NCBI GenBank assembly: GCA_025642075.2
Contig: JAODUO010000564.1
Coordinates: forward strand, 208,501-272,500
DNA from: Ridgeia piscesae
Lineage: Eukaryota; Annelida; Polychaeta; Sabellida; Siboglinidae
DNA length: 64,000 nt
Direction of reading: 5' to 3'
Shown one piece after another: positions 3,283 to 58,417 of this stretch. Under the pieces are notes generated by a model that saw only the letters and a program-made list of their open reading frames with translations, ran no database searches and was not told the DNA's origin. Positions within the stretch are counted from its first letter, which is position 1; each line of letters begins with the position of its first letter. The position numbers and the translations under genes were made by a program.

Positions 3283-6200
3283 GTCAGTAGAAAAGAAGGT
3301 GGTGTAGTGGGTGGCGCATCTGCCTGTCATTTCAGCATAGTCATAGTGAGCTGTAGTCTAGGCAGAAACTGGTAATAATTTACCATTATAAAAAATATCT
3401 TGTAAATCATAAACAGAGATTTTTAGGGATGGTCGGTGACCTGCTGGTCAGTGACCTATAAATATATAGGTCAATAAATTGATTGAAGTAATTCTAATAA
3501 AGTAGTTGAACCATCATCAAATTAAATTCTCTGCCACATTATAACTGTGTGTTCTGGGAAACTGGAATTGTAAATAAACTGTGCCCATGTTTACCCAGTG
3601 TGTCTCTTGTGTATCCGCCAGATGCGGGACGAGAGAGTGACCAAGGGGAGGCGACAGACATTGTGGACGACTGCGGACTTCGCTTCCAGCTAGCAGCCAG
3701 ACACTACATCTACATGCAGAACACCATGCCCATGAGACAGCGCGCCCAGCTGCTGCAGCAAGGCCTCAGTCCCGCCAACATTGTGTGGGCCTTCCACTCA
3801 GAGGCAGAACAGGTGGGTTCATTTCCACTCAGAGGCAGAACAGGTGGGTTCATTTCCACTCAGAGGCAGAACAGGTCAGTTCATTTCCACTTACAGGCAG
3901 AACAAGTTGGTTGATTTCCACTCAGAGGCAGAACAGGTCGGTTCATTTCCACTTACAGTCAGAGTAAGTCGGTTCGTTTCCACTCAGAGGCAGAGCAGAG
4001 CAGTTCAGTTTATTTCCACTCATAGTCATAGTAAATCAGTTCATTTCCACTCGGAGGCAGATCAGGTTGGCCCGCTTCCACTCAGAGGCAGGGCAGGTTG
4101 GATCATATCCACCACACAATTCAGTTAATTCCCACTCTGATAAAACCACACCAATTTATTTCCATTCATAGGCAGAGCGTTTCATTCCACACTCACAGGC
4201 AGAGCAGACAAATTAATTTCCACTCAGGAACGGAGCAAGTAAATTTATGTCCACTCAGGAATAGAGCAAGTAAATTAACTTCCAGTGGGTTACAGAGCAG
4301 ATCAGTTCATTTTGAACATGTTGGTTATGAACTAATGTGTCTGTTTGTCGCCAGGATCTTCTGAATGTCATTCCCAGCTACCAGCGAGGAGCGCCAATGT
4401 GGTCTGAGTTGAAACAGTTTGGAGTGGGCTGGTGGATCAAGAACATTAGCACGCTCAGACGTCTCATAGAAAAGGTAAGATATGCATTGCTACCTGCCTC
4501 TGTTTATTTTTCTAACTAACGGACTGATTCCCGAACAAATATAACATGCATGTTACTTGTTTATAATCAATAGAATCTCAAGATAGGTAATTTTAAGTAA
4601 TTTTCAGTAGGTGAAAAATATTGTAATATTTTGATGTTTAAACCTTGGTCATGAGTTCGATATTACCGATGTTATATTCAAGTTGGAGACAAAAGTTACG
4701 TGTCAACATAACCTTGCGTCATTGTCAGTTTGTCGTCTCCATTTTGTAGTTGGCAAAGTCTGCGTTCCAAGCCAAGAAGGATCCTCTGGACGCTGCTCTG
4801 TTTTACCTCGCCATGAAGAAGAAGAATGTTCTATGGGGACTGTTTAGGTAAGACGTTTACAATTTGACCGCATATTTGTTAAATGTAGTATAATAGAATA
4901 GACAGAATAATATTTGTGTGTCAACAAAGATGAACTAATATTTATCTGTTTGACAACAGGTCTGTCAGTGAAGAGAGAATGATGCAGTTCTTTAAGAATG
5001 ACTTCACCAAAGATCGCTGGAGAAAGGCCGCACTGAAGAACGCATTCTCGTTGCTTGGTAAACAGCGCTTCGAGCACGCCGCAGCATTCTTCCTGCTGGG
5101 TGGCGCTGTCGATGATGCCATCGAAGTACGTTCTTTTGTGATTAGTTGTTTTATAGTGATTCTACTTTTTGTTTATATTTATTAATTAGTATGTACCCCA
5201 GGGTGCTCCTGCTGTCATTTTCATAGGAGCATTTAATATTAAATTAAATTTAATTTAATAATTTTCTCAACAAATCTCTACCTAGTCTTACACAAACAAA
5301 TATAGTTGTGGTATATTTATCAGTGCCATTATTTACAGCTGTGGTGATCAAAATGTGATTAGTGTTTTACATCTTTGCCTAGTATACTCTAAGTGATAGT
5401 CTTGTGTCGTTTCTTTCTCTATGTTGTTTAGATTCATATAAGAAGGATGCTGGCATTCCTGTTACTAAGTCGTCATACATACATTGGCAAAACATTGCAC
5501 TGAAATCTTTGATATGTTGACACAGCAAACCTCTAGTTACTGACTGTAATCTTGTACAACAATAATTATAGTCATTCCATATTAATAACATCATAAATAT
5601 ATTATGTATACTCCTCAAACAAATGCACTAAAACTAGGACCAAGCTAAACAACACAATTCTACCTTGAAGAAGTTGACAACATCATAAATATACTATGTA
5701 TACTCCTCAAACAAATGCACTTAAACTAGGACCAAGCTAAACAACACAATTCTACCTTCAAGAGGTTGACAACATCATAAATATATTATGTATACTCCTC
5801 AAACAAATGCACTAAAACTAGGACCAAGCTAAACAACACAATTCTACCTTGAAGAGGTTGACAACATCATAAATATACTATGTATACTCCTCAAACAAAT
5901 GCACTAAAACTAGGACCAAGCTAAACAACACAATTCTACCTTGAAGAGGTTGACAACATCATAAATATACTATGTATACTCCTCAAACAAATGCACTAAA
6001 ACTAGGACCAAGCTAAACAACACAATTCTACTTTCAAGAGGGTGACAACATATAAATATACTATGTATACTCCTCAAACAAATGCACTTAAACTAGGACC
6101 AAGCTAAACAACACAATTCTACTTGAAGAGGTGACAACATCATAAATATACTATGTATACTCCTCAAACAAATGCACTTAAACTAGGACCAAGCTAAACA

Positions 6201-9200
6201 ACACAATTCTACCTTCAAGAGGTTGACAACATCATAAATATACTATGTATACTCCTCAAACAAATGCACTAAAACTAGGACCAAGCTAAACAACACAATT
6301 CTACTTTCAAGAGGTTGACAACATCATAAATATACTATGTATACTCCTCAAACAAATGCACTTAAACTAGGACCAAGCTAAACAACACAATTCTACCTTC
6401 AAGAGGTGACAACATCATAAATATATATGTATACTCCTCAAACAAATGCACTAAAACTAGGACCAAGCTAAACAACACAATTCTACCTTGAAGAGGTTGA
6501 CAACATCATAAATATACTATGTATACTCCTCAAACAAATGCACTAAAACTAGGACCAAGCTAAACAACACAATTCTACCGTGAAGAGGTTGACAACATCA
6601 TAAATATACTATGTATACTCCTCAAACAAATGCACTTAAACTAGGACCAAGCTAAACAACACAATTCTCCCTTTCAAGAGGTTGACAACATCATAAATAT
6701 ACTATGTATACTCCTCAAACAAATGCACTTAAACTAGGACCAAGCTAAACAACACAATTCTACCTTGAAGAGGTTGACAACATCATAAATATACTATGTA
6801 TACTCCTCAAACAAATGCACTAAAACTAGGACCAAGCTAAACAACACAATTCTACTTGAAGAGGTTGACAACATCATAAATATACTATGTATACTCCTCA
6901 AACAAATGCACTAAAACTAGGACCAAGCTAAACAACACAATTCTACTTTCAAGAGGTTGACAACATCATAAATATACTATGTATACTCCTCAAACAAATG
7001 CACTAAAACTAGGACCAAGCTAAACAACACAATTCTACCTTCAAGAGGTTGACAACATCATAAATATACTATGTATACTCCTCAAACAAATGCACTAAAA
7101 CTAGGACCAAGCTAAACAACACAATTCTACCTTCAAGAGGTTGACAACATCATAAATATACTATGTATACTCCTCAAACAAATGCACTAAAACTAGGACC
7201 AAGCTAAACAACACAATTCTACCGTGAAGAGGTTGACAACATCATAAATATACTATGTATACTCCTCAAACAAATGCACTAAAACTAGGACCAAGCTAAA
7301 CAACACAATTCTACCTTGAAGAGGTTGACAACATCATAAATATACTATGTATACTCCTCAAACAAATGCACTTAAACTAGGACCAAGCTAAACAACACAA
7401 TTCTACTTTCAAGAGGGTGACAACATCATAAATATACTATGTATACTCCTCAAACAAATGCACTTAAACTAGGACCAAGCTAAACAACACAATTCTACCT
7501 TCAAGAGGTTGACAACATCATAAATATATTATGTATACTCCTCAAACAAATGTACTAAAACTAGGACCAAGCTAAACAACACAATTCTACCTTCAAGAGG
7601 TTGACAACATCATAAATATACTATGTATACTCCTCAAACAAATGTACTAAAACTAGGACCAAGCTAAACAACACAATTCTACCTTCAAGAGGTTGACAAC
7701 ATCATAAATATACTATGTATACTCCTCAAACAAATGTACTAAAACTAGGACCAAGCTAAACAACACAATTCTACCTTGAAGAGGTTGACAACATCATAAA
7801 TATACTATGTATACTCCTCAAACAAATGCACTAAAACTAGGACCAAGCTAAACAACACAATTCTACTTGAAGAGGTTGACAACATCATAAATATACTATG
7901 TATACTCCTCAAACAAATGCACTTAAACTAGGACCAAGCTAAACAACACAATTCTACTTGAAGAGGTTGACAACATCATAAATATACTATGTATACTCCT
8001 CAAACAAATGCACTAAAACTAGGACCAAGCTAAACAACACAATTCTACCATGAAGAGGTTGACAACATCATAAATATACTATGTATACTCCTAAAAAATG
8101 CACTTAAACTAGGACCAAGCTAAACAACACAATTCTACCTTGAAGAGGTTGACAACATCATAAATATACTATGTATACTCCTCAAACAAATGCACTAAAA
8201 CTAGGACCAAGCTAAACAACACAATTCTACCTTCAAGAGGTTGACAACATCATAAATATACTATGTATACTCCTCAAACAAATGCACTAAAACTAGGACC
8301 AAGCTAAACAACACAATTCTACCTTCAAGAGGTTGACAACATCATAAATATACTATGTATACTCCTCAAACAAATGCACTTAAACTAGGACCAAGCTAAA
8401 CAACACAATTCTACCTTCAAGAGGTTGACAACATCATAAATATATTATGTATACTCCTCAAACAAATGCACTAAAACTAGGACCAAGCTAAACAACACAA
8501 TTCTACCGTGAAGAGGTTGACAACATCATAAATATACTATGTATACTCCTCAAACAAATGCACTTAAACTAGGACCAAGCTAAACAACACAATTCTACTT
8601 TCAAGAGGGTGACAACATCATAAATATATTATGTATACTCCTCAAACAAATGCACTTAAACTAGGACCAAGCTAAACAACACAATTCTACCTTCAAGAGG
8701 TTGACAACATCATAAATATACTATGTATACTCCTCAAACAAATGCACTAAAACTAGGACCAAGCTAAACAACACAATTCTACCTTCAAGAGGTTGACAAC
8801 ATCATAAATATACTATGTATACTCCTCAAACAAATGCACTAAAACTAGGACCAAGCTAAACAACACAATTCTACCTTCAAGAGGTTGACAACATCATAAA
8901 TATACTATGTATACTCCTCAAACAAATGCACTAAAACTAGGACCAAGCTAAACAACACAATTCTACCTTCAAGAGGTTGACAACATGATAAATATACTAT
9001 GTATACTCCTCAAACAAATGCACTAAAACTAGGACCAAGCTAAACAACACAATTCTACCTTCAAGAGGTTGACAACATCATAAATATACTATGTATACTC
9101 CTCAAACAAATGCACTTAAACTAGGACCAAGCTAAACAACACAATTCTACCTTGAAGAGGTTGACAACATGATAAATATACTATGTATACTCCTCAAACA

Positions 9201-12200
9201 AATGCACTTAAACTAGGACCAAGCTAAACAACACAATTCTACCTTGAAGAGGTTGACAACATCATAAATATACTATGTATACTCCTCAAACAAATGCACT
9301 TAAACTAGGACCAAGCTAAACAACACAATTCTACCTTGAAGAGGTTGACAACATCATAAATATACTATGTATACTCCTCAAACAAATGCACTTAAACTAG
9401 GACCAAGCTAAACAACACAATTCTACCTTCAAGAGGTTGACAACATGATAAATATACTATGTATACTCCTCAAACAAATGCACTTAAACTAGGACCAAGC
9501 TAAACAACAGCTGCCGATCTGGCCCCAGCACTGACGCATACATTTAAGTTCTCCTTTCAGATGTGTTTACAAGTTTTATTTAGACCATTGTCATTTTATT
9601 TTACTTCACATATCCAACCCTCCCACCAGTCAGCCTCCGCCAACTCCCTTTTCCCCAAGTCTTTCCCACCTTCTGTCTCTAACTGTGTCACATCTCCATC
9701 TTCAGGTGTGCATCAACAAATTAGACGACATGCAGCTGGCCATCGTTGTTGCCCGTCTCTATGGCAACGACCTCAACGAACTGGTCCCGCCGAAACTGAA
9801 ACATCTGCTTCACGAGCAGTGCCTCGGCTACGACGCATCAGGGCAGAATCCTGACATCACCAACGCCCACCCCGACCCGTTTATCCGGAGCATCGCGTGC
9901 TGGCTCCTCAAGGATTACTCTGGCGCCCTTGGCACCCTCCTCGAGACAAAGGCGGGGTCAGCCCGGGTCGATGACGAGGGCGACAAAGACGCATACCTCG
10001 CAAAGCCCAGCGTGTTCAACTTCTACAACTACCTGCGCACACATCCACTGTTGATTCGCCAGAATCTTGCGGCGTCAGCCGGTGGCAAGGCAGTGCTGCT
10101 TGCTGGGTTCTCGCAGAAGCAGCATGGCGGAGACGACATTGTGACTTTCGTTGACAAGATCAGCCCGGTGGAGCGAAGTCTGTACTTCATGACCGCACAC
10201 GCTCACTTCAAGAGCGGCTGTCCTGCGCTCGCGCTGGAGGTCCTCAGTAAGCTGCCAGCTGTTGTCGACACTGGTAATGACATCACAACGAGTCACAGCG
10301 GTGACGTGTCAGTGGAAACGTCAGGGATCAGCTCTGGCACCATCGACGATTTCGGTGCAGGAAAATCTGGCAACACTGCTGACGGTTTCGACTGGGGCGC
10401 CCCTAAGGCTGTCGAGATAACAGACAGTTTTGATTGGAGTCAACCTGTCTTGGCTCCGGTGGAAGATGAACTTGTGCTTACGTTTGACGATGACGACGAT
10501 GACAAAGATGACACGGACGAAGAGGGAGACCCTGATGATGCACAGAAGGCGACGGATGACGTCAGTGAGGACGGCAATAAGACGCTGACAGAGAGTGTTA
10601 GCGAGAGCAAGAAGCCGGAGGTCGGAGACATCATGGCGCATCAGCTAAAGTTCATCGCGTGTCTCAAGATCATGATGGAGGAGCTGGCCACACTGGCAAC
10701 TGGCTTTGAGGTGGACGGTGGTCAGCTGCGCTACCAGCTGTATGTGTGGCTCGAAAAGGAAGTGGACGTCCTCAAGAAACTCTGCAACTATGGCCAGGAC
10801 ATTGACACGGCCAATCTGCCGGGCGAGCATGACGGTCAGTATGCGTGGGTGTGTGTAACTGTGAGCATTCAAGTGAGACCACATGGGCATGATAACAACT
10901 TCATTTAAACTTATTGATGTTTGATAAGTCAGTGTTCATCAAGGGATTAGGCAGAGACCCATCTGCCTGTCTTCAAGACTGGCAGATGACCTGCCAATAT
11001 GGGTAATTACCTGTGGAATTAAGAGGGGCAAGCAGGCGCCTAGATTAACCGACAGTTCCAAGTCTACATGCTAAAATTAATAACAACGGGCACAGCTGAA
11101 ATTGAGACATCAAATGGATCAATATCAGTTAAATTAACGGCTCAAAATACACAAGTTTGCATTGAAACAAATGAACCAGCCAATAATGGCTGGTGTTTGT
11201 CAACATTTCTGATGCTACAGACATTGTTGTCCGACTTGAAATTGACTAAAAAACAGTCTCTTTCAAAACTGCTAAACGCCCTGAGTTCATTTTGACAAAC
11301 GCAACTCATCTTTCATTAAAAAAAACTCCTTTTATTTATAAACATGAACTCCAGTGGGGAGCGGTGGCCACGCGGTAGAGCGCTGGACTGTCAATCGAGG
11401 GGACGGTGGTTCAATCCCACCTACCGCCGTTTCGAAACTTAGGCAATTTCTTCACCCCACGTTTGCCTGTGTCTTTCGGAAGAGACACTAAAAGCCGGTG
11501 GTCCCTTCTGTCTGGTGTCTATGCCAGGGGAAGTAAAAGATCCCACACAGGGGGTAAATGTGTAACCTGTAGTGGACTCACAAATTCTAGAAAAGAATAA
11601 CTCCTGCGTTAGCCCAAGTTTGGGCTGTTTGGAGGTAATCCCCTAAAACCTAAGACCTTTTAGAAGAAGGTGAAACCATGTGTGTCCTTGACCTGTCTAT
11701 AGCCTAGGTCACTAGTTTCAGTTGGTTAGCTAACTCAAAAGCAGGATTTGTTCATGGTAAATGAAAGCAGTGAGTTTACCTGGCAGCTTTGACCTGTTTG
11801 TGCAGTAAAGAATCTATTGTTTGTAGGGGCGAGTTCAGACTCGATGGGGAACACGTCCCTCTTCTCGCACTCCCACACCCTCCATGAGGTCATCCTCGCT
11901 GAGAAAATGGACTTTGAGGCAAAGTTACGCAGGTAAGTCAAGTGTATTTCAGCCTCAGCTCTGTCAGACTAGAGGTGCGTCCACCCAACATTTGGAGGGG
12001 CTGAGTTTATTGTTGGTTGGATGGTGATTTTGAGGAACAAAACACTTTAATTTTGTGTACTCTCACAATTATTTATATTGTCCATTGTATAGTTAAAATG
12101 CATTGGAGCATGTTTGGACTGGATTGTGTATGTGAACATGCAGATATGTGTATCGACCAGGATATTATTAGCCCGGTAAAAATCTGATGTAAATGCCTAA

Positions 12201-12500
12201 CTTGGGTGGGTGGGTGGGTGGGTGGGTGGGTGGGTGGGTGGGTGGGTGGGTGGGTGGGTGGATGGATGGATGGATGGATGGATGGATGGATGGATGGATG
12301 GATGGATGGATGGATGGATGGATGGATGGATGGATGGATGGATGGATGGATGGGATGGATGGATGGATGGATGGATGGATGGATGGATGGATGGATGGAT
12401 GGATGGATGGATGGATGGATGGATGGATGGATGGATGGATGGATGGATGGATGGATGGATGGATGGATGGATGGATTTGTTTATTTATTTATTTGTTGGT

Positions 12501-12575
<75 letters not shown>

Positions 12576-12602
12576 TTTGTGTTTATTTGTTTGTTTGTTG
12601 GT

Positions 12603-12637
<35 letters not shown>

Positions 12638-15600
12638 TTATCACTGGAATGAAAAGTAACAAGACCCTGCCAGTGACAGATCACCCTGAGAACTTACCTT
12701 CCCTGTACCTGTGTGTGTGGTCCAGCTGAAACATTGCCGATAACGAATTGGTCCTGCGGTCCCTAGGATGGCGAAGCGGAAGCACTGGCTGAAGACCAAT
12801 CAGCAGCTGCTGAGGACCCTGCTCAGCTACAGTGTGCTCCACGGGTCCTGTGGCGGAGGTCTCGCGTCGGTCCGCATGGAGCTGATCCTGCTCCTGCAGG
12901 AGCTACAGCAGGAGAAGACGACTCAGCAGCTGCTCTCCCCGCTACCCTTCCCCACCACCCTCCCGCTACTCTCGTCAAGCATCTCCCGCGCCGTCATTGT
13001 CAATCCCATCAGGCACCTGGAGAACATGACACATGACATGCTGTATACGATCGTCAACTTCAGGTGAGTGCGGAAAGTTGGATAAGACCAGTGCAGTGTT
13101 GTTGTGTGTGTATATGTCTGTCTACACCTGTCTGTGTCAGGTACATTTATGTTAAGTACAATTGCTAGTACAAATGCATTAGTTGAAGAAACATTAACTT
13201 ATCAAGTACAATTTGTAGTGCAATTATTTTTGGTCAAATACGAGTACATTTTAAAGTCTTAGTGATTAACAATTGCATTATTCTTCTAGTGCCAGTTATA
13301 AACGTTTTAAATTCTATGTAACCAGGATGGGTATTCAGCACTGTGCAGTGTACAGGTAAAACAGTACAGAAGTGATATTTCTTTGCAAGTACTACTGACC
13401 AAGTTCTTGTTGTTTCCAAAACACATGTACCAACAACAAACAGTATAACTTGAGGGGAAAATGGACATGGGTGCATGTATTTGTCCCCTAGCCCTGATCT
13501 CTACCAACAAATTACTTTACCCTTCCAGGGTATTTCTGCACACCCCATTTACACAGCCACAACAGACACGACACATGACGGCAAAGAATGTAGATTTTAT
13601 GCAATGTAGATTCTACATCCATGTGTGTTGTGTCTACTTGCTAACACACAAGAAAGAAACTGATGAGACCAACATTTAGAATGACTGGATACAATGAACA
13701 ACCAACAACATTCAAAAAAGAAATACAAACTAATCTAACATTGAAACGTTTTATCGATTGTGTGACATATTTGAATTTGTGTTGGATATTATTTCAGAGA
13801 TCCACCAACCCTGACATACAAGCTGCATAAAGTGATGACACTGCGGAACATGAGTGCGGCGTTGTCAGCGTGTATCTACCAGTGTCTCTGTGACAGCGAC
13901 GACTTTGTCATCTCAAGAAATGAACATTACGATGTCGGCATGGAAGGCTTCACCAGGTACGTTGAGGGCGATCTAAAAAATCTACATGAAAACACTATCG
14001 TTTAAGATATTTGTGTTTGCCATGACAGCAGAATTATAACTAAGTTACTTTGAAAAGCAGTATAAAATATACAGATATATATAGATATACATGATACAAA
14101 GAAATATTTAATTGTTGAGTATACAGCAGAAATATATAAATAATTGACAAACAGATACTGTTTCGTTAGAGATTCCTACTTAGACTCAGACCACTTACAA
14201 ATGCATCATGAAAGTTTTAATAGATCGGAAGATCGGTGTACAATTTCATATCCACTAGGGGGCGCATCATAGAGAAAAAACTGCTGCATGTGCTCAATGT
14301 GAACTTTGACCCAAAAATAAATAATGTATTTTTACATCCCGTATTTCGTATCGATGATTATCTGGTGAACGTAGATAGTGTTTTCTTAATACACAGTCCA
14401 TTTCCTCTTCCTCATTTTAACTTTCGTTGAGGCAGTGTTGGATTGTCAATCACAGAAACCCAGTTTTGAATCCCGCTACCAGCCGCTGATTTTAAACTTT
14501 GGCAATTTCGTTCACCTCGTATTGCTTGAGTGTTCTGTAAGTGACACCTTTCTGGTGTCTATGCCAGGAAGTAACAGATTCCACTCGAGGCTAAATATGT
14601 AACTTGTAATGGACTCGCAAAGTCTAGATGAAGATATTCTACCTGGATTTTCCAGAGTAATGATTCTAAACCGGAACCGCGGACCTCTCAGCTGAGAGCT
14701 AGATGTTCTACAGACATGGCAGCATCCTGTTGTGCTGAAGTGTACATGTCATATGTGTACATGTCGTATGTCTCATTGCAGCACTAAGGTGGTGTACACA
14801 GACAGCTACTTGATGGCCGGTGCCCATGGCCGCCGCAGACTCAGTAGTGCCAGTAGCGGAGGTGACGACATACCCAACTCTACGCCAGGGATGTGGCCAG
14901 GTAAGTACTCCAGTCATGACACTTTGCATTGTGTCAGGTGTGGTTATTTATAAATATCACATTTTATTTTCCACCCACTGTAGGCTGTATACTGTTTGCC
15001 TGTCCAATCTGTTTTTGCTGAGAGATTTTTGCTGTTTTAATTTGTGCATGGAGGTAATGTGACATCTCCACGATGTACAGGTAAATAACATAGACTTGCT
15101 GTTTTAACATCATGACAGCCCATGTTTGCTTAAATTAACATAATTAATAAGTTCATTTAAAAATAATATATATTTTATTGTTATACTGTATTCTGAATTT
15201 GTATTTTTGAATGAATATCATGTTAAAGAAACATGTGCAGTCAAGGTGTTAATATAATATTATATAACCACATAAACTTATTTTTAAATTAAAACAGTCA
15301 TGCTTTACTTTTTTGCTGATGGATCATTCACAGTGTACCAATCCTCTCGTTCCAGGCGTGTCGTCCCTACAAGCCTTGCTGGCCCGTGAGCGGGATGAGA
15401 ACCAGCCGGAGTTGAACATGCTGCTGACTGAGGCAACTGTGGCCGTCTACACAAGTCTACTGATACATTCGCTCACGACCTATGACCCCAATCTGTTGTA
15501 CCGCCTGGTGGCGAACCCATTTGTCGAGCGCATGTGGCCGGCGTTGTTTGGTGGCGGAGTGAAGAAGCTGGTTCGACTGAATCGGACAACAGACGCACAA

Positions 15601-18600
15601 ACTAGTGAGTTTATTTTGCCACTTGATTTCTGCTCTATAGCATCATTATGTGACGAAATGCAATATATTCACACATAAACACCATGGGGGTGTTTGTTAA
15701 CTTTCTTGATTTGATTAATCTGTGAACAGTTGCTTACAATTTCATCCAATAAATTTTAATAGTATAGTTGTTTACATCACCATCATCAATATGGCACACT
15801 GCAGTCAACATGGTCTGCACTCGCTGTCAAAATATATGTCAAAAACCTGTTAGATTGTTTTTATTTGAGACATATCACTGTGTTGCCAGTTTGTAGATGG
15901 CATTTTGCTCCCAGTATCCAAAATATCTGACTAAAGATGTATTTAATACATCATGAGGACAGCGGGAAGAAGAAGGAATTGACAGAGGAGATTGGAGTGA
16001 AAAACACATAATCAGGAAAGTTGTTGGAAAGAGAATGAGGTGGGCCGGGCACATACAAAGGATGGGGGAAAGATGCTGTAAAGGTCCCAGCTAGCAGAGG
16101 AGGGTGGAAGACGAAGAAAGGGAAAGACTAAGGCTGTGATGGGAAGACAGCTTGAAGTGAGATCTACAGGGGGCTGGCATGAACAGCAATGAATTGGTGG
16201 CCGTTACAGAAGAGAGGAGAGCATGGAAGGAGATTTGAGGGAACAGAGGAGGCAATGAAGTGACATAGCCCCATCCCCCCACAACAGAGCAAGAGCAAAT
16301 AAGATGTATTTAACATGACATATAGTGATGTTATCATAAAGAGGCAGGAACTCAGATGGGGAAGAAATCATGTAGGTGCCTGTCAACAGCAGCTGAGCCA
16401 TTTACACGTGTGTTCTGCAAGTTGGCCTGAGATACTGACATTGTAAATACATGACCTGCCACGACTTAGTAGTGTTATTTATCGAGGAAACTAAACTGGA
16501 CATTGAGTGAAATGTATTTCCATCACAATCACATTGATGGGATATGATATAGATGAACAACTAGGCAACTTAACATCTGGTTCAAACTGTCATTTCACAT
16601 GTATTGAAAACGCAGTAGTAATAGAGAGTGTTTTCTGTGTTCATCAGAAGTTGCGCAGTCGAATGACGACACAGCGAAACAGCGACTGAAGCTGCACATG
16701 AAACTGCTGGAGGCGGGGGGAGGCAGCGTGGCCCTGCAGGAGAACAGACTCACCTTCAAGGAGAAGTTTGTGCCTCCCGAAGTCAGCATGCTCAGTTACT
16801 TCATGGCAAAGGTGAGAGACTTAGATCTACTTTATCGTTTGCCACAACATTTTGACAGCAGGAAGTAACCGTACCACAACATACTGTAGCTGTCCAGGCC
16901 ATAATAATTACGAGTTTAAAATATACGTACACTTTGTTTATAATGTAGCTTTATTCCTTTTTGTTTTATTTAAGGAGAGACACTTCAGTCTGAAATGTGT
17001 CAAAAATTACTTTTTGTGATAATATTTGTTTCCTTGATTGACATGTCTACTTGATAATAAATATATCTTTTTAGCATATATTCACTGCCAAGTCACTATA
17101 TTTTAGCATTAAACACAACAATTAGACCCCAAATATTAGCCAACTAATTCACACAAAATGTTTTAATTTTTAACTTATTTAGCACACGTTTCATATTTGT
17201 TGCTGATTAACTGACATGTCATGATAACTTATGGACATAGAGACTCTGCATTTGTAAAACGGAAATCGATATTTAGGGTAAAATTGCTTCCCGATCTAAT
17301 TTATGTTTCTTTATATGATAATTTAAACAAGTTTTATACAAATAGGTCTATTGAGTTTTATATGTTATCAGTATACCCGGTACATGTTACAAGTTGGCCA
17401 CAAGTCAAAATCTATGTAGGGTTAATAATATGTGAATTCACTATTAATGAAGTATTACTTGTAGAACCATTATGAAATGTTACATGCATAGCAAGGCTAT
17501 AATATATGCAGCTTATTTGCAACATGTAGTATGTGTAAAACACAATAATTAATTAGATCATACTTTAGGTGCCATTTTCTCAGTTGTCACTGTTTTGGTT
17601 ACAAAAGTGAATATAAGTCCAAAACTAACCAGCCAACAAGAGAGGTGAATATCAACATTCCTGTGCAATGAAACAGTGATCAAACATCTGGTTTATAGCC
17701 CACAGGTTTTTGAAGGTGACAGATTTAGGGATACTAAGCAATTCTGTTTCAAATCAGTTCTAAAAAAATCCAGATGACATACAAAATTGGCTATTCACAG
17801 AAAGTTAGTATAATTCATTATCTAGTTACTAGCATGTAAACTGATTAAATTACCGTAGGGGTTTCGTTTTTTTATTCATTTAAAATGTTGAGACTTTGTT
17901 TTTATTATAATCCTCCCACACTGGAGTGTTCTTTAAACAAAAAAGAAAATCATGAAACATCCTTAGTTTGCAATATAGTAAATTTATACAATACATACTT
18001 AATAACCGATTGTTGTTTGTATTTATCTTGAATAAACAAATGTATTTATTGAGAATAAAAAAATTGTAATCTGGTGATGTTATATTAATTAAGTTGTGTA
18101 TATTTATATTTTATATGTGCATTGTTTATCATTAGTGCATATGGAGCTATGTAGAACATATGTTATCAAACATTAGTGCCTATGGAGCCATGTAGAGCAA
18201 CTGTTATCAAACATTAGTGCATATGGAGCTATGTAGAACAAATGTTATCAAACATTAGTGCATATGGAGCTATGTAGAACATATGTTATCAAATATTAGT
18301 GTCTATGGAGCTATGTAGAACAAATGTTATCAAACATTAGTGCATATGGAGCTATGTAGAACATATGTTATCAAACATTAGTGCCTATGGAGCCATGTAG
18401 AGCAACTGTTATCAAACATTAGTGCACATGGAGCTATGTAGAACAAATGTTATCAAACATTAGTGTCTATGGAGCTATGTAGAACATATGTTATCAAACA
18501 TTAGTGCATATGGAGCTATGCAGAATAAATGTTATCAAACATTAGTGCATATGGAGCTATGTAGAACATATGTTATCAAACATTAGTGCATATGTAGAAT

Positions 18601-35632: not shown

Positions 35633-35667
<35 letters not shown>

Positions 35668-44020: not shown

Positions 44021-44029
44021 TTAAAGACA

Positions 44030-44937: not shown

Positions 44938-44980
44938 CCTGCCGAACCAAAGTTTGGTTTCGAGCGACCGGAAAGAAAGG
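44938..44980 (-). other. SSR2: Candidate SSR2 non-coding first exon
   Basis: On the minus strand a pyrimidine-rich start (cctttctttccggtcgctcg) resembles a terminal oligopyrimidine 5' end and leads to a good donor AGG|gtatgt at 44,937. It would splice to the tttag just before the SSR2 ATG. Placement is inference; no transcript evidence. Confidence 0.45.
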
Positions 44981-45867
44981 TGCGGTGTTTGCGCATGTGC
45001 ATCCACGATGTTAATTTTTCTTTTGGTCGCTATGGGCGCTGCTATGAATTGATATGGACAAACAAAAAGGCGGACAAGTGTACAATTTTTAAAAATCGGA
45101 TATAATGTTATTTTTTCCGTATTTCCCGCCTGTATTATTCCAGGTTGTGTCCATTGTTAGATTAAAAAAATAGGAATATGCTTGATGATTTCAGCTAATA
45201 TTTACATACAGACCTATTAATTAGAATTAACAAACTTATAGAATCAATTCCAATGATTTAGCAAAATTGACATATACTTGAGATAAAAACTAAGTAAAAT
45301 ATGATATCTAGCTCGATCGCGACACATATTGACCATACATTATTATTATTAGATGATATAATTTCTAAAAAAATTATAATAATGGTGATCGATGATGGTT
45401 GATTAATATTATAATGTTAGGTATAATTAATACGTAAATATATTATTATTGTTACAAAGGAAACAAAATGTTTTAGAAGTGAGAACCGATATATACCCAT
45501 AAACAGTGTAGTGTTGTTTATTATGTTTATACGTACAATAAATAAATACAACACATTTTTATTGAATGAAGATAATTGCCGCGTGAATGAGAGTGCATGT
45601 GATGTAGGCCCTATATCGTACATTAATTATTGACTTAATATGGGTTACTCTCAACGATTGACTTATATTCATATTAATTCGTGAGAAACGCACCACGTAT
45701 TTTTAAAACACAACCCGTCATATCAAGGTATTCTTGATGTAATCTGATAGAAATTTCTATCATATAGCAGTTTCTTTGCCAATGCATTTGACCTCAGATC
45801 CAGACGACCCACTGGAACTTCGTCACCGCGAAGGGGATTGTGGGATATCGCATAACCAACAGCAAAC
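44981..45867. promoter_or_regulatory. Shared SSR2 / CCT3 upstream region
   Basis: About 0.9 kb separates the candidate SSR2 first exon (minus) from the CCT3 start (plus), so both promoters probably lie here. No TATA box is convincing. A TCCCACAATCC-type element (minus strand of 45,835-45,845), similar to the ZNF143 site, lies 23 bp before the CCT3 ATG; this is a weak suggestion only. Confidence 0.4.
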
Positions 45868-45901
45868 ATGATGAGCGGTGGGCAGCAAGTGATTGTACTC
45901 A
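45868..45901 (+). CDS. CCT3: CCT3 exon 1
   Basis: [11 protein letters not shown] plus one base; donor A|gtaagt. Context agcaaacATG is acceptable for initiation. Confidence 0.95.
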
Positions 45902-48900
45902 GTAAGTAATGTTTTATCAAATATGTTCGTACTTATGGGTTTCATTTAAACACACATTCTAATATGTTTATTATCTTGCAGATCAAAACACGAAACGAGA
46001 GTCGGGTAGGAAGGTCCAACTTGGAAATGCAGCCGCCGCAAAGGTGAGCCCAAACAAACGGCATGCTAAAATGACATGTCATGCGGCTTTCTGTGTCTAA
46101 ACACGTGTTTCGAGAAAGTTCTACAGACGAATTCTAGTTGTTTCTTAATTATGTTTGTCGATATGTTATAAATTTGGTTTATGTTTTAGTCTTTAAATGC
46201 GCATGCTTTTTAGTAGCCATTAATGCGGGTTTTTTATTAGTTATATTTTATATTAAATAATAAATGCGCCATTTTATCGCCCACTAGCTGCTTAACGACT
46301 GCATTAAATTTGGTTGACAACTATAGCGGTGTGTAAGTATATAATGGAGGTTGGTTATAATTAAATTAAAAAAGTTTTATAGATAATATTCGGCACTTAT
46401 GTAGAATTCGGAACCCACCCAAAGTCCTAAGTGTGGCGTTATAACTGTATATTGGATACCTCACATTAACTATAATCCTAACCCTAATAAATCAGCATTC
46501 CCAGGTATATTTATGTCTTACAAGAGAGAGACCCAAATAACGCTCTGATTTGGCTCCGATTTGTGCCAGCTGCAAGCACATTGGCCATGTGTTACTGCGC
46601 CATGGACATGGAATGAGCGATAAACAGTTTGTTCAAGCCAACCACACCGTCTTTTCGACTTCAAAAGTCTACTAAAACGTGCTGTTTATAAAGCACAAAT
46701 AAGCGTGAGATTATGTTGAATGATTTAATTAACAAACTGAAGTATCAAATGTTGGCAAAGATACAGTTGTAACGACAAAATTGAGGTGGGTCCGAAATCT
46801 ACTAAGTGCATAATATTCACCTTAATGTTTCCATTTAAACAAATCCGATCTGGTCAGACGAATAATATTGGTTGTTTTTCAAAACATTTCTCAGTATGGC
46901 TGTGCTGCAAGGTCTTTTTTAATTTAATATATTTTGTATTTTCTAAAAATGCACTTATTTATGTTCTTCCTTATTGTGTTAATTATGTTAAGATAGTGAA
47001 CATATAAAGTACACATATATTTGGCATGAGATTGTACGGAAATATTTATGCAAAATGTGATCATTGTTAAAATTAAGTGATTTAGTTGATTTTACAATAA
47101 GCATGTATTTAATTGGATTATATAGCCAATTCAGCTACATATGAAATTGTAATCACGTCAGTCAATTGTTTTGACCATGACATTGTTGTAGATAATTAAA
47201 ATATTAGTCAGGTTTCCTTGAAAAGTTGTGTATTTAAAGAAACATGTCTTCGATATGACGATATCACACCCATCCAATTTATATGACTCCTCTCCACAGA
47301 ACATATACAGCTGTATGTTGCGTTCATTTGGATTTCAGACAGCACTTTGTAATCCAGCTTGCCATGGTAACACAGATAATTACCTACACCTTTATGGTAT
47401 CTTAGAATGTGCCTATTTTTGTTTTTCAATATAAAGATGTATAATTTTCAGGCTATTGCTGACGTCATCCGGACATGTCTAGGTCCAAGGTCTATGCTCA
47501 AGGTAAGTTTGACAAATAGAATTGCCTTCTCATGTAGTCATGTATATAAGCTAACAATAACAGTTTAAAAAGTATTAGCTGTCTATATTTGCAATGTTGA
47601 GAAATAGTAAAATATTTGAAATATTGATAGTTTAAGATAATCCTTTTTTACAAATAAATATAGTAAATATTTGTTAAACAAAGATGTGCCATGATTTCTG
47701 TTCCATGATTCATTAGCATATATCGGTAATTGCCATTATAAAGTGATCCTAAAACTTTTCCAAAACTCGGCATTGTACCTGTGATTTATGTCAATTTATT
47801 GAGGTCTTAGTCATAAATATGCAATATAACATTATTGATTTAGGTGTAGTTTGAACAATTTTTTAATGAAAATTACTGTATTTCATTCTATAAAACTCCA
47901 ACGAGTGGAAAATTAATTGACCCATATTTGTGAGCTGAATATTTAAGTGATGCAATTTGTGTTTGTAGATGCTCATGGATCCTATGGGAGGGATTGTCAT
48001 GACAAATGATGGCAATGCCATCTTGAGGGAGGTAAGTTAACAAGTCCATGATTGAAGTGTGTTTGTTTTAGATCATGGTAGACCACCCTGATTTCAAATC
48101 TGTAATTGAAATATGTTTGTTTTAGATTATGGTAGACCATCCTGCTTTCGAATCTATGATTAAAATATGTTTGTTTTAGATTATGGTAGAACATCCAGCA
48201 GCCAAATCCATGATTGAGATCGCTCGAACACAAGATGAAGAAGTTGGAGATGGAACAACCTCAGTCATCATCCTTGGTACTTGTTTACCATTTCTAGACA
48301 TGCCTTTATGTAGGATAATTTGTTTGCTATTCGAAATAGTTTGTCGCCACAGGCATACTAAATGTTAACCGTGTGACCGGCCAGCGAAAATCCTCTGTTG
48401 CATACTGTTATCATAAAAAATATGAATGAAGCATAATTTTATTGCCAAATGAACTCTTTATCATAATACAATTATACTATCTCTGTTATGTCAGATAATC
48501 ATGGTGATATTATTAGTTGAACGTCATCCAAAAAATATGAACAAACAAATGCACTGTTGTGCTCCCAAATAATTACTGAACGGACAAATGTCCTACTTCC
48601 TGCGAGACAAATGTAGCCATACATTTTAGTTAGCTGCCTAATAACATAAAAATGATTCAAATCCGTTGAGAACTTATTTTTATGATTTTTTTCAACATCG
48701 GGGTAGGGTATTTTAGGCCACCCGAAATATTGCCCTGACAAATGGTCGATTTTTGAGACCAAAAGGCATCATTCTAAGTATTTCAACTAGTATAATAGTC
48801 ATATTCTTGAATACTGTCAGTTGTTTTGTCGAAACATAGATGCAGTAACATTAGATAATCCAAAGTAAATATTTGAATCGAGAAAGTTCTTCGACACGAA

Positions 48901-53763: not shown

Positions 53764-53817
<54 letters not shown>

Positions 53818-56800
53818 TATTTTTAAATGATACAAAATAGAAACAATCGGTTAACAATAAACAGTTCATGAACTGTCAGGTTACTGTAGATGAACAAAAC
53901 CATGGTTAGACTACCACTAAAACCATTTGCATATGTGGTGTGTTATTTCACACATTGCAGAATATTTTCGAAACCAATTAAAGCAACAATAATTTAGCAT
54001 GATAACAAAATAGTTTTAAGTTCTGGAAATATGCCTCTGGTTGAAGAAACTGATCTGCATTCTGGAACGAAGCGTAATAAATATATTAATTTCAGTAATG
54101 GTGTCTCTTGCTTCAGGGGACTAATTCTTCACATGTATATGTCAAATAGAACAGTAATGAAATTTAATTTTAGAAATGGGATGGGACAATCCTGTTTGGT
54201 CTAGTTTCATGTCATTTGTATTTTTCCTTGCCAACACGAAGCACCGTAGAACAGTGGGTAAAGAACATGCTAGGTCGTTATTATGTCTTTGTTAATGTCG
54301 TCAGTTAAGTATTGTAATTGAGCCTGATGTTGTTTTGTAACTGCCCACTGTGATTGTGCCAGTGACGTCTACAGAAATGTTATTGTCATTGTGTCGTCAG
54401 AGCCGTGGGAGCAACCGTCATAAACCGAACTGACGAGATAAAGGACGAGGACATTGGCAACGGATGTGGCCTCTTCGAGATCCGCAAGTTTGGTGACGAG
54501 TAAGTGTCTTCTCACTTGTCTGTCCTTGTTAGCGTCTTAACAAGATTTCTATTGTTGTGTTGTGCCACTGAGCTCACTTACCAGGGATGTTTGAGGTAAA
54601 GGTGTCACTTCAGTTTCTTATGCAACACTGTAATGCTCTTCTCTTTGATTAATGCTAATTTAACCCATTTTATCCGGAATACAATTCTAGTCGTAGTTAC
54701 CCTTTTTATCCAGAATACGATTCTAGTCGTAGTTTGCACTTGACACGGCTTCCCTGCACTCTGACGTTTTGGAATCCCATTGGCTGGTTAACACCGAATG
54801 ACGTCAGTATATCGGGATCACTAGGAAACTCATATTTTTCAACCAATCAGCGCCGTTCTGTGGGTATTTGCAGTTCAAAGCGGGTACCCCCAAGCTAAAG
54901 TGAAATCAAAGATGGCGTCGAGTCGCAAAGATCGTTAAATGTTGACGTATTTTGAAGGATAACTCCGCTAATTTACTTCATACTGGTGATGACAAGAAGG
55001 CAGACAAGTGGATAGACGATATAAGATGGACGGTTATGGTATTTGATGCGACATTTGTCCGTGAAGACATACTTTGAAGCCATCGAAGTGGGTCAACCGA
55101 CAACGGCATCCATTTCCGCCCATCTCGCTCCACGCCGTATTTTTGGCGCCAAACAAAGTTAAGAATATTTCCAACGACGGTAACTACTTCATAAATAAAG
55201 TGATGTTGAAATGTTGAACAAAGTTGTTACTTTATAGTACTTCTTTATAGGTTATAAGAAATGAGCCACAGAATTATATATCGTTGACAGAAAATATTTC
55301 AAAAATTTGCATAATTCCGCTCAGCGGCGCCACACGTTGGCGATTCAGTCGACTGACGTGGGGGTATTACAAACAATTTTACATTATGAGATTATTATCC
55401 AAGATATGTGGACAAGTTGTATACCTTTATTTTCAGCAAAGATTAATGCATAAAATAAACTCAACTTGCTCATTGACATGTTGCTTCCTTCATGGCGAAA
55501 ATGTCGGGTGAAAAGTAATGTGACAAACCTCAACATAGGTTTGAATTTATTAGACATGTTTTGCCATATGCCACATATAATATATATGATAAAACTATGA
55601 GTTTATCGATGCGACTGTATAGTTTATTTTATCTACTTTCTAAAGGTATATCACATTTAAAAATTGATTGAGAAATAATCAAGTTATGTCCATTTTAAAT
55701 GAAGGCCTGTCATTTTTTAATGCTGACAGTTTGGTTTGAGGAAATGATCAGGAACTGGCTGCAACTCGTCGTCACTAGCTTCAGGATAAAATGGGTTAAC
55801 TCTGTAATATATTTTATATTGTTGACTAGTAAGAGTTATTGTTGTGTTGACTCAGTATATTTAAATTTGTTGCTATTGAGAAATATCCTTACCTCTTTGG
55901 ATCGACATCAACCTTCTTCAGTTTGTGTGACATTTGTACGTTGCCTGTTTGTGACTTGACATTTGTACATTGCCTGTATGTGACTTGACATTTGTACATT
56001 GCCTGTTTGTGACTGGACATTTGTATGTTGCCTGTTTATGACTTGACATTAACGTGTATGTCACCGTACCAGATACTTCACGTTCCTGGAGAAGTGCACG
56101 GACCCGAAGGCATGCACCATCCTGCTGCGGGGTGCCAGCAAGGACATCCTCAATGAGGTCGAACGCAACCTCCAGGACGCCATGAATGTCGCCCGCAATG
56201 TCATGATAGACGGCCGCCTGGTGGCCGGTGGTGGCGCCTGCGAAATGGCACTCGCTCAGGTCAGTTGAGCCCGGTTACTTTGCTATTACTTGCTAGAATC
56301 TTTCAGAATAATTATTTTATTTGTTAAATTCATTTTTTTCACATTCAGTTGACACTGGCACGTATGACTAATCAATGTTTTTTTCAAATTAGTTTACTTC
56401 AGAGTCGTTGACGTAAATTTAACTAAAACAGGTTAAAATGACAATTTTTTAACGACATGATTGAACATGAATAAAGAGATGTGTGTTTACACAATACAAA
56501 ATAATGTAGATGAAACATTTACCATGTTTGTATGCGATCTTTGAAGGACTTACATACAAATGTGGTTTATATAATTGTGTTAACACATTGATAAGACTAC
56601 TCGTAATGTTGAGTGGTGGTGTTGTCTGTTCTAGGCACTCAACGAGAAGGCCAAGAGTATCACTGGAGTCCAGCAGTGGCCCTACAGGGCTGTGGCCCGC
56701 GCCCTCGAGGTCATACCCCGCACCCTCATACAGAACTGTGGCGCCAGCATCATCCGCACCCTCACTGCCCTACGTGTATGTATCACCCTCACTGAGTGTA

Positions 56801-58417
56801 TCACCCTCACTGAGCGTATCGCCCTCATTGCCCTATGTGTATCTGTCACCCTCACTTCCCTACGTGTATGTATCACCCTCACTGAGTGTATCGCCCTCAT
56901 TGCCCTACGTGTATCTGTCACCCTCACTGCCCTACGTGTATGTATCACCCTCACTGAGTGTATCGCCCTCATTGCCCTACGTGTATCTGTCACCCTCACT
57001 GCCCTACGTGTATGTATCACCCTCACTGAGTGTATCGCCCTCACTGCCCTACGTGTATGTATCACACTCACTGAGTGTATCACCCTCACTGCCCTTTGTA
57101 TATGTATCACCCTCACTGCCCTTTGTATATGTATCACCCTCACTGCCCTTTGTATATGTATCACCATCACTGCCCTGCATGTATGTATCACCCTCACTGT
57201 GTGTCACCCTCAGTACTGTGTGTGTATCACCCTCACTGGGAGGGTGATCTATTAGTTAATAATTACTACTTAAAACCAAATGGGGAGAAGCTTGAGTGAA
57301 ACTTCACCAGGGCAGTTTGCAGCTTAAAGACAACTTAGAAACATTTGATAAAGGCTTTCATTTATGAATTGTTGAATATTTTATATTATTGTATCAATGT
57401 TCTTGGTCAATAATTAACAAATGGACAGAGGCCTGAGTGGAACTTCACCAGGGCAATTTGCCAGTGTGAATGACTTAAAACAAGCAATATTGTGTTGATA
57501 TGTTGACATGTTGTCATTTTTTTCGTGGCAGGCGAAACATGCCGTAGAAAACAACCTGACCTGGGGTATAGATGGCGACACCGGTAGCATCGTGGACATG
57601 AATGAGTATGGGGTGTGGGAGGCATTCTCCGTCAAAGCTCAGACCTTCAAGACAGCCATTGAAGTGAGTGACACACGTGCACATACACACACAACGCTGC
57701 ATGCTGCACATGTAAACACTGCCGTTGTTATGTTGTAAGAAATTAACTTACTTTGGAGCAAATCTTTTGAAAAGTACAACGTTTCGACCCATAATCTACA
57801 GGTCTTGGTCGTGTGCTGGTGTCACATGACGAAGACCTGTAGATTATGGGTCAAAATGTTGTACGTGTCAAAAGATTTGCTCCAAAGTAAGTTCATTTCT
57901 TACAACGTTATCTTGGAGCCATGAACAATATATTCCATAATGCCATTGTTGTAGGGGTTTTAATAAGTGTTATGTTCTTTTGTGTAAGTTAAATAATTGT
58001 GGATGGATCTTGTAACAGTGACTAATTGTAGTATTAGGGGGCAGTCTGCCATCCCACAATTTACAACGGGCTCATTAACCCTACATAAACTATCAAGACA
58101 CTCCACGTAAGGACGGCATGGGAAAGTGCAGCACTGTTTTCATTGTGGTCCACAAACAAATATATGACACTGATATTAATTGATTATGAAAAATAACAAA
58201 CACAAAGACTAAAACAACAGTAATAAGTACCAGCTAGTATGCACACAAGTACTGCAGATGTAAAACATGTGACACAGATTTGTTGGTGGTCATTGTAACA
58301 ATTTCCATTTGTGTTTTGTAGACGGCGATTCTACTTCTAAAGATCGACGACATCGTTTCGGGCACAAAGAAACAAGGTGGTGGCGGTGGCGGCGGTCAAG
58401 AGGGTGGTGACCAATGA
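45868..58417 (+). CDS. CCT3: T-complex protein 1 subunit gamma (CCT3)
   Basis: Complete gene, 17 coding exons, 544 aa (human 545): 45868-45901, 45982-46043, 47452-47502, 47969-48031, 48180-48276, 49526-49646, 50139-50219, 50979-51084, 51361-51443, 51751-51817, 52760-52794, 53346-53525, 54401-54499, 56073-56259, 56635-56775, 57532-57663, 58322-58417. All GT-AG, phases agree. The product is one of eight subunits of the cytosolic chaperonin TRiC/CCT, which folds actin, tubulin and WD40 proteins using ATP. Seen: [37 protein letters not shown] (Asp 63), the nucleotide-binding GDGTT at 93-97, apical-domain [71 protein letters not shown] at 412-414, [20 protein letters not shown] and [10 protein letters not shown]. 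The end is Gly-rich. Two ATGs in a row (45,868 and 45,871); the first is used as in the MM start of human. Head-to-head with SSR2. Confidence 0.98.
45982..46043 (+). CDS. CCT3: CCT3 exon 2
   Basis: [21 protein letters not shown]; acceptor atcttgcag, donor AAG|gtgagc. Confidence 0.97.
46044..46391 (+). other. CCT3 intron 2, left part
   Basis: Unique AT-rich sequence up to the MITE target site. Confidence 0.5.
46392..46810. mobile_element. 419-bp MITE with 8-bp target duplication
   Basis: Imperfect terminal inverted repeats: left ggcacttatgtagaattcgg plus aacccacc; the right end read in reverse is tgcacttagtagatttcgg plus acccacc. Both sides are flanked by TAATATTC (46,384-46,391 and 46,811-46,818). 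There is no transposase frame. An 8-bp duplication points to hAT or P-like mobilisation, but the ends are not a textbook hAT start. Confidence 0.85.
47452..47502 (+). CDS. CCT3: CCT3 exon 3
   Basis: [17 protein letters not shown]; acceptor attttcag, donor AAG|gtaagt. Confidence 0.97.
47969..48031 (+). CDS. CCT3: CCT3 exon 4
   Basis: [21 protein letters not shown], with the NDGN nucleotide-site motif; acceptor gtttgtag, donor GAG|gtaagt. Confidence 0.98.
48072..48179 (+). repeat. Two 54-bp decoy copies of the exon 5 acceptor
   Basis: Two upstream copies (starts 48,072 and 48,126) repeat ttgttttag plus the first 40 or so bases of exon 5 at exactly 54-bp spacing; the true exon starts at 48,180. 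Each copy would translate as IMVDHP... and end in TAG, because the next copy's acceptor TAG falls in frame. Part of a still earlier copy is at 48,041-48,060. Confidence 0.92.
48180..48276 (+). CDS. CCT3: CCT3 exon 5
   Basis: [20 protein letters not shown] then [12 protein letters not shown]; the best match to human of the three candidate starts ([18 protein letters not shown]). Donor G|gtactt. Confidence 0.97.
48277..49525 (+). other. CCT3 intron 5, no gene
   Basis: No conserved frame. Around 49,050-49,140 cccctgaagatgtgtattat and gaaataaacaaacaaaaaca look like the 3' end of an old retroelement, orientation +; family not assigned. Confidence 0.4.
49526..49646 (+). CDS. CCT3: CCT3 exon 6
   Basis: [20 protein letters not shown] then [16 protein letters not shown]; donor AG|gtactt. 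Confidence 0.97.
49895..49950. repeat. 16-bp tandem repeat
   Basis: Four copies of ggaaaacctgttgtac in CCT3 intron 6. Confidence 0.9.
50139..50219 (+). CDS. CCT3: CCT3 exon 7
   Basis: [27 protein letters not shown]; donor TG|gtaagt, with a (GT)n tract about 40 bp downstream. Confidence 0.96.
50220..50978 (+). other. CCT3 intron 7
   Basis: Holds a (GT)n microsatellite at about 50,261-50,300; otherwise AT-rich with nothing recognised. Confidence 0.6.
50979..51084 (+). CDS. CCT3: CCT3 exon 8
   Basis: [20 protein letters not shown] then [13 protein letters not shown], matching EIDIKKYARVEK; donor AAG|gtacat. Confidence 0.97.
51361..51443 (+). CDS. CCT3: CCT3 exon 9
   Basis: [27 protein letters not shown]; start of the apical domain. 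Donor AG|gtcagc. Confidence 0.97.
51751..51817 (+). CDS. CCT3: CCT3 exon 10
   Basis: [22 protein letters not shown]; donor CAG|gtgagt. Confidence 0.97.
51818..52759 (+). other. CCT3 intron 10, nothing recognised
   Basis: Unique sequence. A small AG-to-GT window at 52,656-52,695 has no family match. Confidence 0.5.
52760..52794 (+). CDS. CCT3: CCT3 exon 11
   Basis: Short exon: [11 protein letters not shown]; donor GG|gtaggt. Found by homology to TDIEITREEDF. Confidence 0.95.
53105..53260 (+). mobile_element. Decayed SINE, family 1
   Basis: tagtggtagagac, a worn B-box (ggttttgaatttc), accgccatttttaaacttta and gtaacctgcaatggactctc keep the order of the 11,356 copy. Lies about 90 bp before CCT3 exon 12. 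Confidence 0.65.
53346..53525 (+). CDS. CCT3: CCT3 exon 12
   Basis: [40 protein letters not shown] and [14 protein letters not shown]; donor AG|gtgagt. Confidence 0.98.
53526..54400 (+). other. CCT3 intron 12
   Basis: A (TA)n microsatellite at about 53,766-53,812; the rest is AT-rich with nothing recognised. Confidence 0.6.
54401..54499 (+). CDS. CCT3: CCT3 exon 13
   Basis: [20 protein letters not shown] then [11 protein letters not shown]; donor GA|gtaagt. Confidence 0.97.
54664..55795. mobile_element. Non-autonomous piggyBac-like element
   Basis: 1,132 bp flanked on both sides by TTAA (54,660-54,663 and 55,796-55,799). The terminal inverted repeats are cccattttatccggaa at the left and, read in reverse, cccattttatcctgaa at the right. 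Near the left end a stretch containing ttctagtcgtag is duplicated (about 54,690 and 54,720). No long transposase frame and no DDD-type catalytic region, so it needs a transposase from elsewhere. Sits in CCT3 intron 13. Confidence 0.88.
56073..56259 (+). CDS. CCT3: CCT3 exon 14
   Basis: [40 protein letters not shown] and [14 protein letters not shown]. The GGG loop closes the nucleotide site. Donor CAG|gtcagt. Confidence 0.98.
56635..56775 (+). CDS. CCT3: CCT3 exon 15
   Basis: [40 protein letters not shown] and LTALR; donor CGT|gtatgt. Its end and donor are the seed of the repeat that follows. Confidence 0.97.
56776..57240 (+). repeat. 18/27-bp minisatellite seeded by CCT3 exon 15 donor
   Basis: Units of about 27 (tgccctacgtgtatgtatca then ccctcac) and 18 bp (tgagtgtatcgccctcat) form a 72-bp higher-order pattern. 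Each 27-bp unit copies the exon end ccctcactgccctacgt and the donor gtatgt. All units are multiples of three, so the CCT3 frame stays open to 57,255. Confidence 0.95.
57270..57470. repeat. Duplicated 50-bp segment
   Basis: Two diverged direct copies about 140 bp apart share aaatgg, gag, ctgagtg and aacttcaccagggcagtttg (57,280-57,330 and 57,418-57,470), just before exon 16. Confidence 0.7.
57532..57663 (+). CDS. CCT3: CCT3 exon 16
   Basis: [20 protein letters not shown] and [24 protein letters not shown]; donor GAA|gtgagt. Confidence 0.97.
57732..57906. mobile_element. Fold-back element, 175 bp
   Basis: Two arms of about 75 bp (57,732-57,806 and 57,832-57,906) are inverted copies with few mismatches: gttgtaagaaattaacttac at the left pairs with gtaagttcatttcttacaac at the right. 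The loop is about 25 bp. GTTAT stands on both sides (57,727-57,731 and 57,907-57,911) as a possible 5-bp target duplication. In CCT3 intron 16. Confidence 0.85.
58322..58417 (+). CDS. CCT3: CCT3 exon 17 (last)
   Basis: [18 protein letters not shown] followed by a Gly-rich tail and a TGA stop at 58,415-58,417. The Gly-rich end replaces the Gln/Gly-containing tail of vertebrates. Confidence 0.97.
   Translation, partial: TAILLLKIDDIVSGTKKQGGGGGGGQEGGDQ

Follow-up and report, generated by a model that had tools for sequence, protein, structure and literature searches.

Why minisatellites should adjoin exon–intron junctions again and again in two neighbouring genes is the question raised by a 64-kb stretch of the genome assembly of the tubeworm Ridgeia piscesae (the window). 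The preliminary description of this DNA reported seven tandem arrays that repeat an exon edge together with its splice site, and proposed either a mechanism acting at exon–intron borders or selection that tolerates expansion only where the true site stays intact.

The window contains the 3' part of DMXL and the gene CCT3 (Table 1). DMXL was modelled by spliced protein alignment to Owenia P0121 and to P0122, and the two references give identical boundaries at all five array junctions. Manual curation of the exons followed, in which forced small ones were removed and a few outer boundaries moved; the five array junctions stayed as they were. Upstream exons lie outside the window, and several outer boundaries of the model are weak or uncertain. 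No same-species DMXL transcript occurs among the matches listed (34 matches, best 61% identity) or, in a homologue search, among the best 120 of 574 (top 56% identity).

The translation of the CCT3 model equals protein P0001 residue for residue. P0001 is listed with a contig of 1822 bases and the gene covers 12.5 kb, so the contig must be spliced. P0001 uses the exon-side splice site at both CCT3 arrays and carries no in-frame repeat extension at exon 15. Unaltered splicing at the array junctions is therefore supported by a protein for the CCT3 arrays, and the DMXL junctions are based on homologues. CCT3 is 96% identical to the protein of Lamellibrachia satsuma, 81% to that of Paralvinella and 76% to that of Branchiostoma floridae. 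In the CCT3 tree, the window, P0001 and Lamellibrachia satsuma group together with support of 100/100; Lamellibrachia belongs to Siboglinidae, Annelida. The identities and the tree rule out a cephalochordate (lancelet) origin of the window. The searches also returned P0003, a 739-residue CCT3 attributed to the yeast Rhodotorula toruloides, which outscores molluscan proteins despite 65% identity; this record is possibly chimeric or mislabelled.

Table 1. Gene models and junction arrays in the window. Junctions were placed by spliced protein alignment.
Feature	Position	Strand	Junction	Exonic part of unit, or basis of model
DMXL (DmX-like / Rav1 family), 3' part, 25 modelled exons	2965..39505	+		spliced alignment, hand curation, homologues, yeast Rav1 match
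31-bp array, DMXL exon 2	3792..4340	+	donor 3812 (3812/3813)	21 nt
42-bp array, DMXL exon 17	24016..25220	+	donor 24037 (24037/24038)	22 nt
44/54-bp array, DMXL exon 18	25599..28849	+	donor 25616 (25616/25617)	18 nt
53-bp array, DMXL exon 19	29505..31185	+	donor 29512 (29512/29513)	8 nt, ungapped
39-bp array, DMXL exon 23	37283..37578	+	acceptor 37568 (37567/37568)	11-13 nt
CCT3 (TCP-1 gamma), 17 coding exons, 544 aa	45868..58414	+		spliced aligner written for this analysis
54-bp array, CCT3 exon 5	48041..48217	+	acceptor 48180 (48179/48180)	36-41 nt
18/27-bp (45/72 composite) array, CCT3 exon 15	56759..57199	+	donor 56775 (56775/56776)	17-19 nt

Tandem Repeats Finder (TRF) gives 56 rows for the window. 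Together with the spliced gene models, it confirms the seven junction arrays and their unit lengths. Five arrays are at donors and start inside a coding exon; two are at acceptors and finish inside one. In each case the unit consists of the exon edge plus the splice site, and the array sits in an intron whose second splice site is outside it. The largest array has about 64 copies by TRF, and three are shorter than 450 bp. The array of DMXL exon 2 is covered by TRF rows 3792–4112 and 4210–4284, and its end at 4340 was set by eye. Two details of the preliminary description have to be corrected. The arrays do not begin exactly at the exon edge, as the sequence copied without gaps reaches 8 to 41 nt into the exon, and the acceptor assigned there to DMXL exon 24 belongs to exon 23 in the present model.

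The junction units are mutually unrelated. In a unit-to-unit comparison at E 0.1 none matches another, and the sole match, 14 bp long, links the 39-bp junction unit to a 44-bp unit away from junctions. Judged by their units, the seven arrays look like independent events, which upholds the independent origin first proposed. A fixed exonic length of the donor units was considered as a mechanistic signature and rejected: it is 17–22 nt in four of the five, and 8 nt ungapped in the fifth. A test of clustering of the donor lengths (range ≤4, P 0.0006–0.0018) is not relied on because it was chosen post hoc and takes for the fifth donor a value of 18 nt from a gapped alignment made by eye.

Among the other repeats in the introns of these genes, three were noted. 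A 92-bp unit in about 43 copies with 97% match (5587–9509) fills most of a DMXL intron and leaves the exons untouched. The window edge truncates a 52-bp array at 1–2551, in the DMXL intron before modelled exon 1; its unit has the word AGGT, and the array might be one more of the junction type, the eighth, with its exon beyond the window. In CCT3 intron 16, an inverted repeat was noticed by eye around 'gacctgtagattatgggtc' (57760–57910), perhaps a small inverted-repeat element.

The pattern was said to have no standard name. In amphioxus, however, minisatellite-like duplications of intron/exon boundaries are called 'mirages' in the cited passages of two papers (PMC3087553, PMC3902484). These passages place mirages in Adh3, troponin C and the globins BflGb6 and BflGb9 and liken repeats in PGBD5 to them, the PGBD5 and troponin C cases being those of PMC3902484. 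As described there, a 5' or 3' exon boundary is tandemly duplicated with its splice site, and the unit length varies by locus. The tubeworm arrays likewise span the boundary, occur at both kinds of boundary and have units that differ between loci. Regular splicing is reported to be kept in amphioxus; the tubeworm counterpart is supported for CCT3. The mirage description further includes length polymorphism and somatic instability, while the tubeworm data come from a single assembly. Two differences are evident. First, the range given for mirages in the cited passages, which is no defining property, is cephalochordates, whereas the present arrays are from an annelid. Second, the window holds seven arrays in two neighbouring genes, with up to about 64 copies, whereas the BflGb6 mirage is described with 6 and 3 copies in its two haplotypes (PMC3087553).

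Other known systems are less alike. Human segmental duplications are described as containing internal tandem repeats with units averaging 30 bp, some of them at exon–intron boundaries (PMC2812944); according to that account they alter gene structure through new introns and alternative splicing, whereas the true junction is kept in the tubeworm, as supported for CCT3. Intron gain by tandem duplication, in which both splice sites of the new intron come from the duplication, as in the potato case described in PMC4974935, also duplicates sequence with splice signals, but the tubeworm copies lie within an existing intron and no new intron is seen. Earthworm metallothionein genes carry minisatellites in their first intron (PMC12783039), which are annelid and intronic as here; exon edges within the units are not described in the cited passages. 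In the cited parts of the Ridgeia genome paper, tandem repeats appear as a method only. No report of mirages in a tubeworm or other annelid was found in the open-licence literature searched, and one may exist elsewhere. Within that literature, the presence and density of mirage-type arrays in an annelid appear to be new.

The frequency of junction copies was compared with chance. A 20-mer spanning each junction was searched for copies within 4 kb, with up to 4 mismatches. Copies were found at 7 of 81 modelled junctions, exactly the seven first reported. In a test by gapped alignment, 7 of 80 junctions reached P≤0.005, versus none of 300 intron positions outside arrays. The gapped alignment revealed no hidden junction copies: one further junction, DMXL acceptor 22, came only to P 0.02, a level equalled by 2 of the 300 controls. 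The idea that interior arrays are decayed junction arrays was rejected on this result and on their units, which share only words of 9–12 nt with exons, at chance level. Nearby copies were present for 579 of 1500 random intronic 20-mers and for 22 of 1500 from exon interiors. Because the introns are so dense in repeats, a per-base count gives junctions no excess over introns. The excess is visible only when every array counts once, as a seed.

For the seed test, each array in the sequence was reduced to a single unit, and seeds wholly within exons were barred. The set comprised the 16 intronic arrays of DMXL and CCT3 that have units of 15 bp or more and score 100 or higher; it omitted the edge-cut array at 1–2551, units below 15 bp, arrays outside both genes and low-score arrays of two copies. 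Uniform seeding predicts 1.42 of the 16 at junctions and 7 are observed (P about 2e-4 to 3e-4). The result is similar for the 13 large arrays only (P 5e-5) and for 19 arrays, with three two-copy arrays added (P 4e-4). In the window, arrays are commoner at junctions than uniform seeding predicts, in line with the earlier statement that random seeding should rarely hit one. The mean G+C content is 0.47 for the junction arrays, 0.42 for the other arrays and 0.37 for the gene background that is not wholly exonic. With GC-matched seeding and at least 8 exonic nt, 7 arrays are observed versus 1.8–2.8 expected (P 0.0009–0.011). With at least 11 exonic nt, a rule that excludes the DMXL exon 19 array with its 8 ungapped nt, 6 are observed versus 1.65–2.6 expected (P 0.003–0.03). 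Because the pattern was the reason for choosing the window, these P values are too favourable. Composition can account for some of the excess.

An unselected sample of 210 kb was taken from another contig of the same assembly (C1), and its genes were modelled by an exon finder trained on the present window. On the window itself, the finder recovers 24 of 42 exons exactly and overlaps 7, with 5 false calls on the plus strand and 21 calls on the minus strand, some of which are arrays. A total of 134 + 16 predicted edges were tested on C1, and only the 24 inside four Pfam-supported genes (TRIM-NHL, PX-LRR, Rpn2/PSMD1 and a lipase) were counted. The Pfam query lacked one exon of PX-LRR and two of PSMD1, the union of the PX and LRR pieces into a single gene is a judgement, and one lipase exon was omitted because it was predicted to extend into a microsatellite. 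Six predicted exons with copies were dropped as arrays or low complexity, as part of a retroelement frame recognised by eye, or, in one case, as a repeat-rich predicted exon. None of the 24 predicted junctions of the four genes has copies, and all three arrays within these genes lie away from junctions. The difference between 7/81 in the window and 0/24 on C1 is not significant (Fisher P 0.35). Weak as it is, the C1 sample lends no support to a genome-wide rate as high as that of the window. Two further features were seen. A lipase exon (L016, 230–841, minus strand) appears by eye to abut a 5-bp microsatellite at its donor, with a unit that contains no exon sequence, and a 31-bp array of 6.5 copies (L010, 5293–5753, on C1) lies within a retroelement polymerase frame recognised by eye.

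We consider it probable that the arrays are mirage-type minisatellites in an annelid, in which a duplication crossing the junction was tolerated and then expanded in the intron. A short tandem duplication would cross an exon–intron junction by chance. It would be tolerated where the exon-side copy preserves the true splice site and the coding sequence, as protein P0001 supports for CCT3 and as may hold for DMXL. The intronic copies would then multiply and homogenise through slippage or unequal exchange at the DNA level, as their shared variants suggest. The excess at junctions in the window would be partly a matter of composition and may include junction-linked fragility, the two being inseparable in the present data. 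Against this explanation, uniform seeding (1.4 of 16) and GC-matched seeding (1.8–2.8) both fall short of the observed number in the window, and the distance gradients at DMXL exons 2 and 18, given below, would be consistent with successive copies taken from the end of the exon. Selective tolerance, as first proposed, has a place in this explanation; it does not account for the excess, as the null already bars units that are wholly exonic and yields 1.4, not 7.

A mechanism at exon–intron borders, acting through structures formed during transcription or through splicing-linked breaks, with R-loops as an example, would make junction DNA prone to tandem duplication, so that minisatellites are born there. 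It would account for the excess over both uniform and GC-matched seeding, and the cited amphioxus genes show the same pattern at both kinds of boundary (PMC3087553, PMC3902484). The exonic parts of four of the five donor arrays are also alike in length, but the fifth differs, the acceptors have 11–13 and 36–41 nt, and the clustering test is post hoc. The C1 junctions are free of copies and the C1 arrays lie off junctions, which argues weakly against such a mechanism. We regard it as rather unlikely. The excess on which the preliminary description based its border mechanism is present in the window; the mechanism itself is only possible, given that the excess may be partly compositional and the window was picked for the pattern.

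It is unlikely that chance and tolerance suffice, with seeds falling anywhere, those that cross junctions surviving and the window being noticed for having many. The choice of the window for its pattern, the repeat density of the introns and the lack of a junction array in the unselected sample are consistent with this account, but the numbers under uniform seeding speak against it for all three sets of arrays.

The splice dinucleotide is intact in 99 of 154 ungapped copies, a warning to gene predictors. The score of the commonest copy is below that of the true donor at DMXL exon 17 (10.1 versus 12.2), exon 18 (7.0 versus 7.5) and exon 19 (4.3 versus 9.7) and equals that of the true site at DMXL exon 23 and CCT3 exon 15. 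A few single copies outscore the true site, as at DMXL exon 2 (12.2 versus 10.3). The reading frame was examined with a slightly different copy search (143 copies). If used, intact copies would lead to stops at DMXL exon 17 (27/27), exon 18 (44/44) and exon 19 (2/2), and so would the two upstream copies of CCT3 exon 5 with an intact AG (2/2). The eight intact copies of DMXL exon 2 would give 5 stops, 2 frameshifts and 1 in-frame extension, and those of DMXL exon 23 would give stops in 5 or 6 of 6, depending on the exon frame. At CCT3 exon 15, 8 of 9 would give an open in-frame extension. In the segment 56635–57252, the frame of this exon is open throughout the 18/27-bp array, and use of a decoy donor would lengthen the chaperonin subunit by in-frame repeats. 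The many intact dinucleotides would be expected if decoy sites were retained because they are functional, for instance if arrays of extra donors regulated splicing. This is very unlikely, considering that most intact copies would cause a stop or a frameshift if used, that 29 of the 31 copies of DMXL exon 19 lack GT, and that the units are unrelated between junctions.

The variants within the arrays bear on how they grew. Among the differences between copies and exon, 1136 of 1232 are common to at least two copies, a count inflated by an indel in the DMXL exon 18 array; without that array the figure is 420 of 492. In six of the seven arrays, a difference from the exon is present in half or more of the copies at some columns; the array of CCT3 exon 5 has just 2 copies. 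Divergence rises with distance from the exon at DMXL exon 2 (rho 0.82, P 0.001) and exon 18 (rho 0.40, P 0.003), with a similar tendency at exon 19 (rho 0.34, P 0.064). The gradient is reversed at DMXL exon 17 (rho −0.55, P 0.003), and no distance trend is found in the copies of DMXL exon 23 and CCT3 exon 15. The shared variants fit an origin from one seed whose intronic copies then multiplied, although concerted evolution could mask several rounds of seeding. The gradients at DMXL exons 2 and 18 would be explained if the exon edge was copied again and again, from pre-mRNA, as first suggested, or from the exon itself. Such re-copying predicts star-like variation instead of derived variants that are common to copies and absent from the exon. 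In addition, the units carry exon and intron sequence unspliced and ordered as in the genome, with no sign of an RNA step. Re-copying is thus disfavoured and, in our view, highly improbable, despite the two gradients.

The least credible account is an assembly artefact: long arrays are hard to assemble, the evidence here is one assembly, and the cited lancelet passages report an aberrantly assembled BflGb6 mirage in the genome draft and a PGBD5 repeat whose copy number differs between two sequence sources, but the tubeworm copies carry distinct variants, three arrays are below 450 bp, the CCT3 model is exact, and re-sequencing of lancelet PGBD5 is said to argue against assembly error.

Duplication across a junction followed by expansion in the intron is thus our preferred reading of the seven arrays. 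Mirages have so far come from a handful of lancelet genes in the cited passages, and the annelid set suggests a pattern that extends beyond cephalochordates. The analysis also provides a first estimate, from one window, of the junction excess over random seeding. A bolder reading, which we hold to be doubtful, is that junctions are true hot spots of minisatellite birth from tubeworms to lancelets, through a conserved duplication process linked to transcription or splicing, and form a standing source of introns and exon variants. The array of CCT3 exon 15 already offers an open in-frame extension. Arrays of junction copies are a clue to the birth of repeats, and perhaps of new introns, and intron birth by boundary duplication becomes testable in tubeworm genomes.
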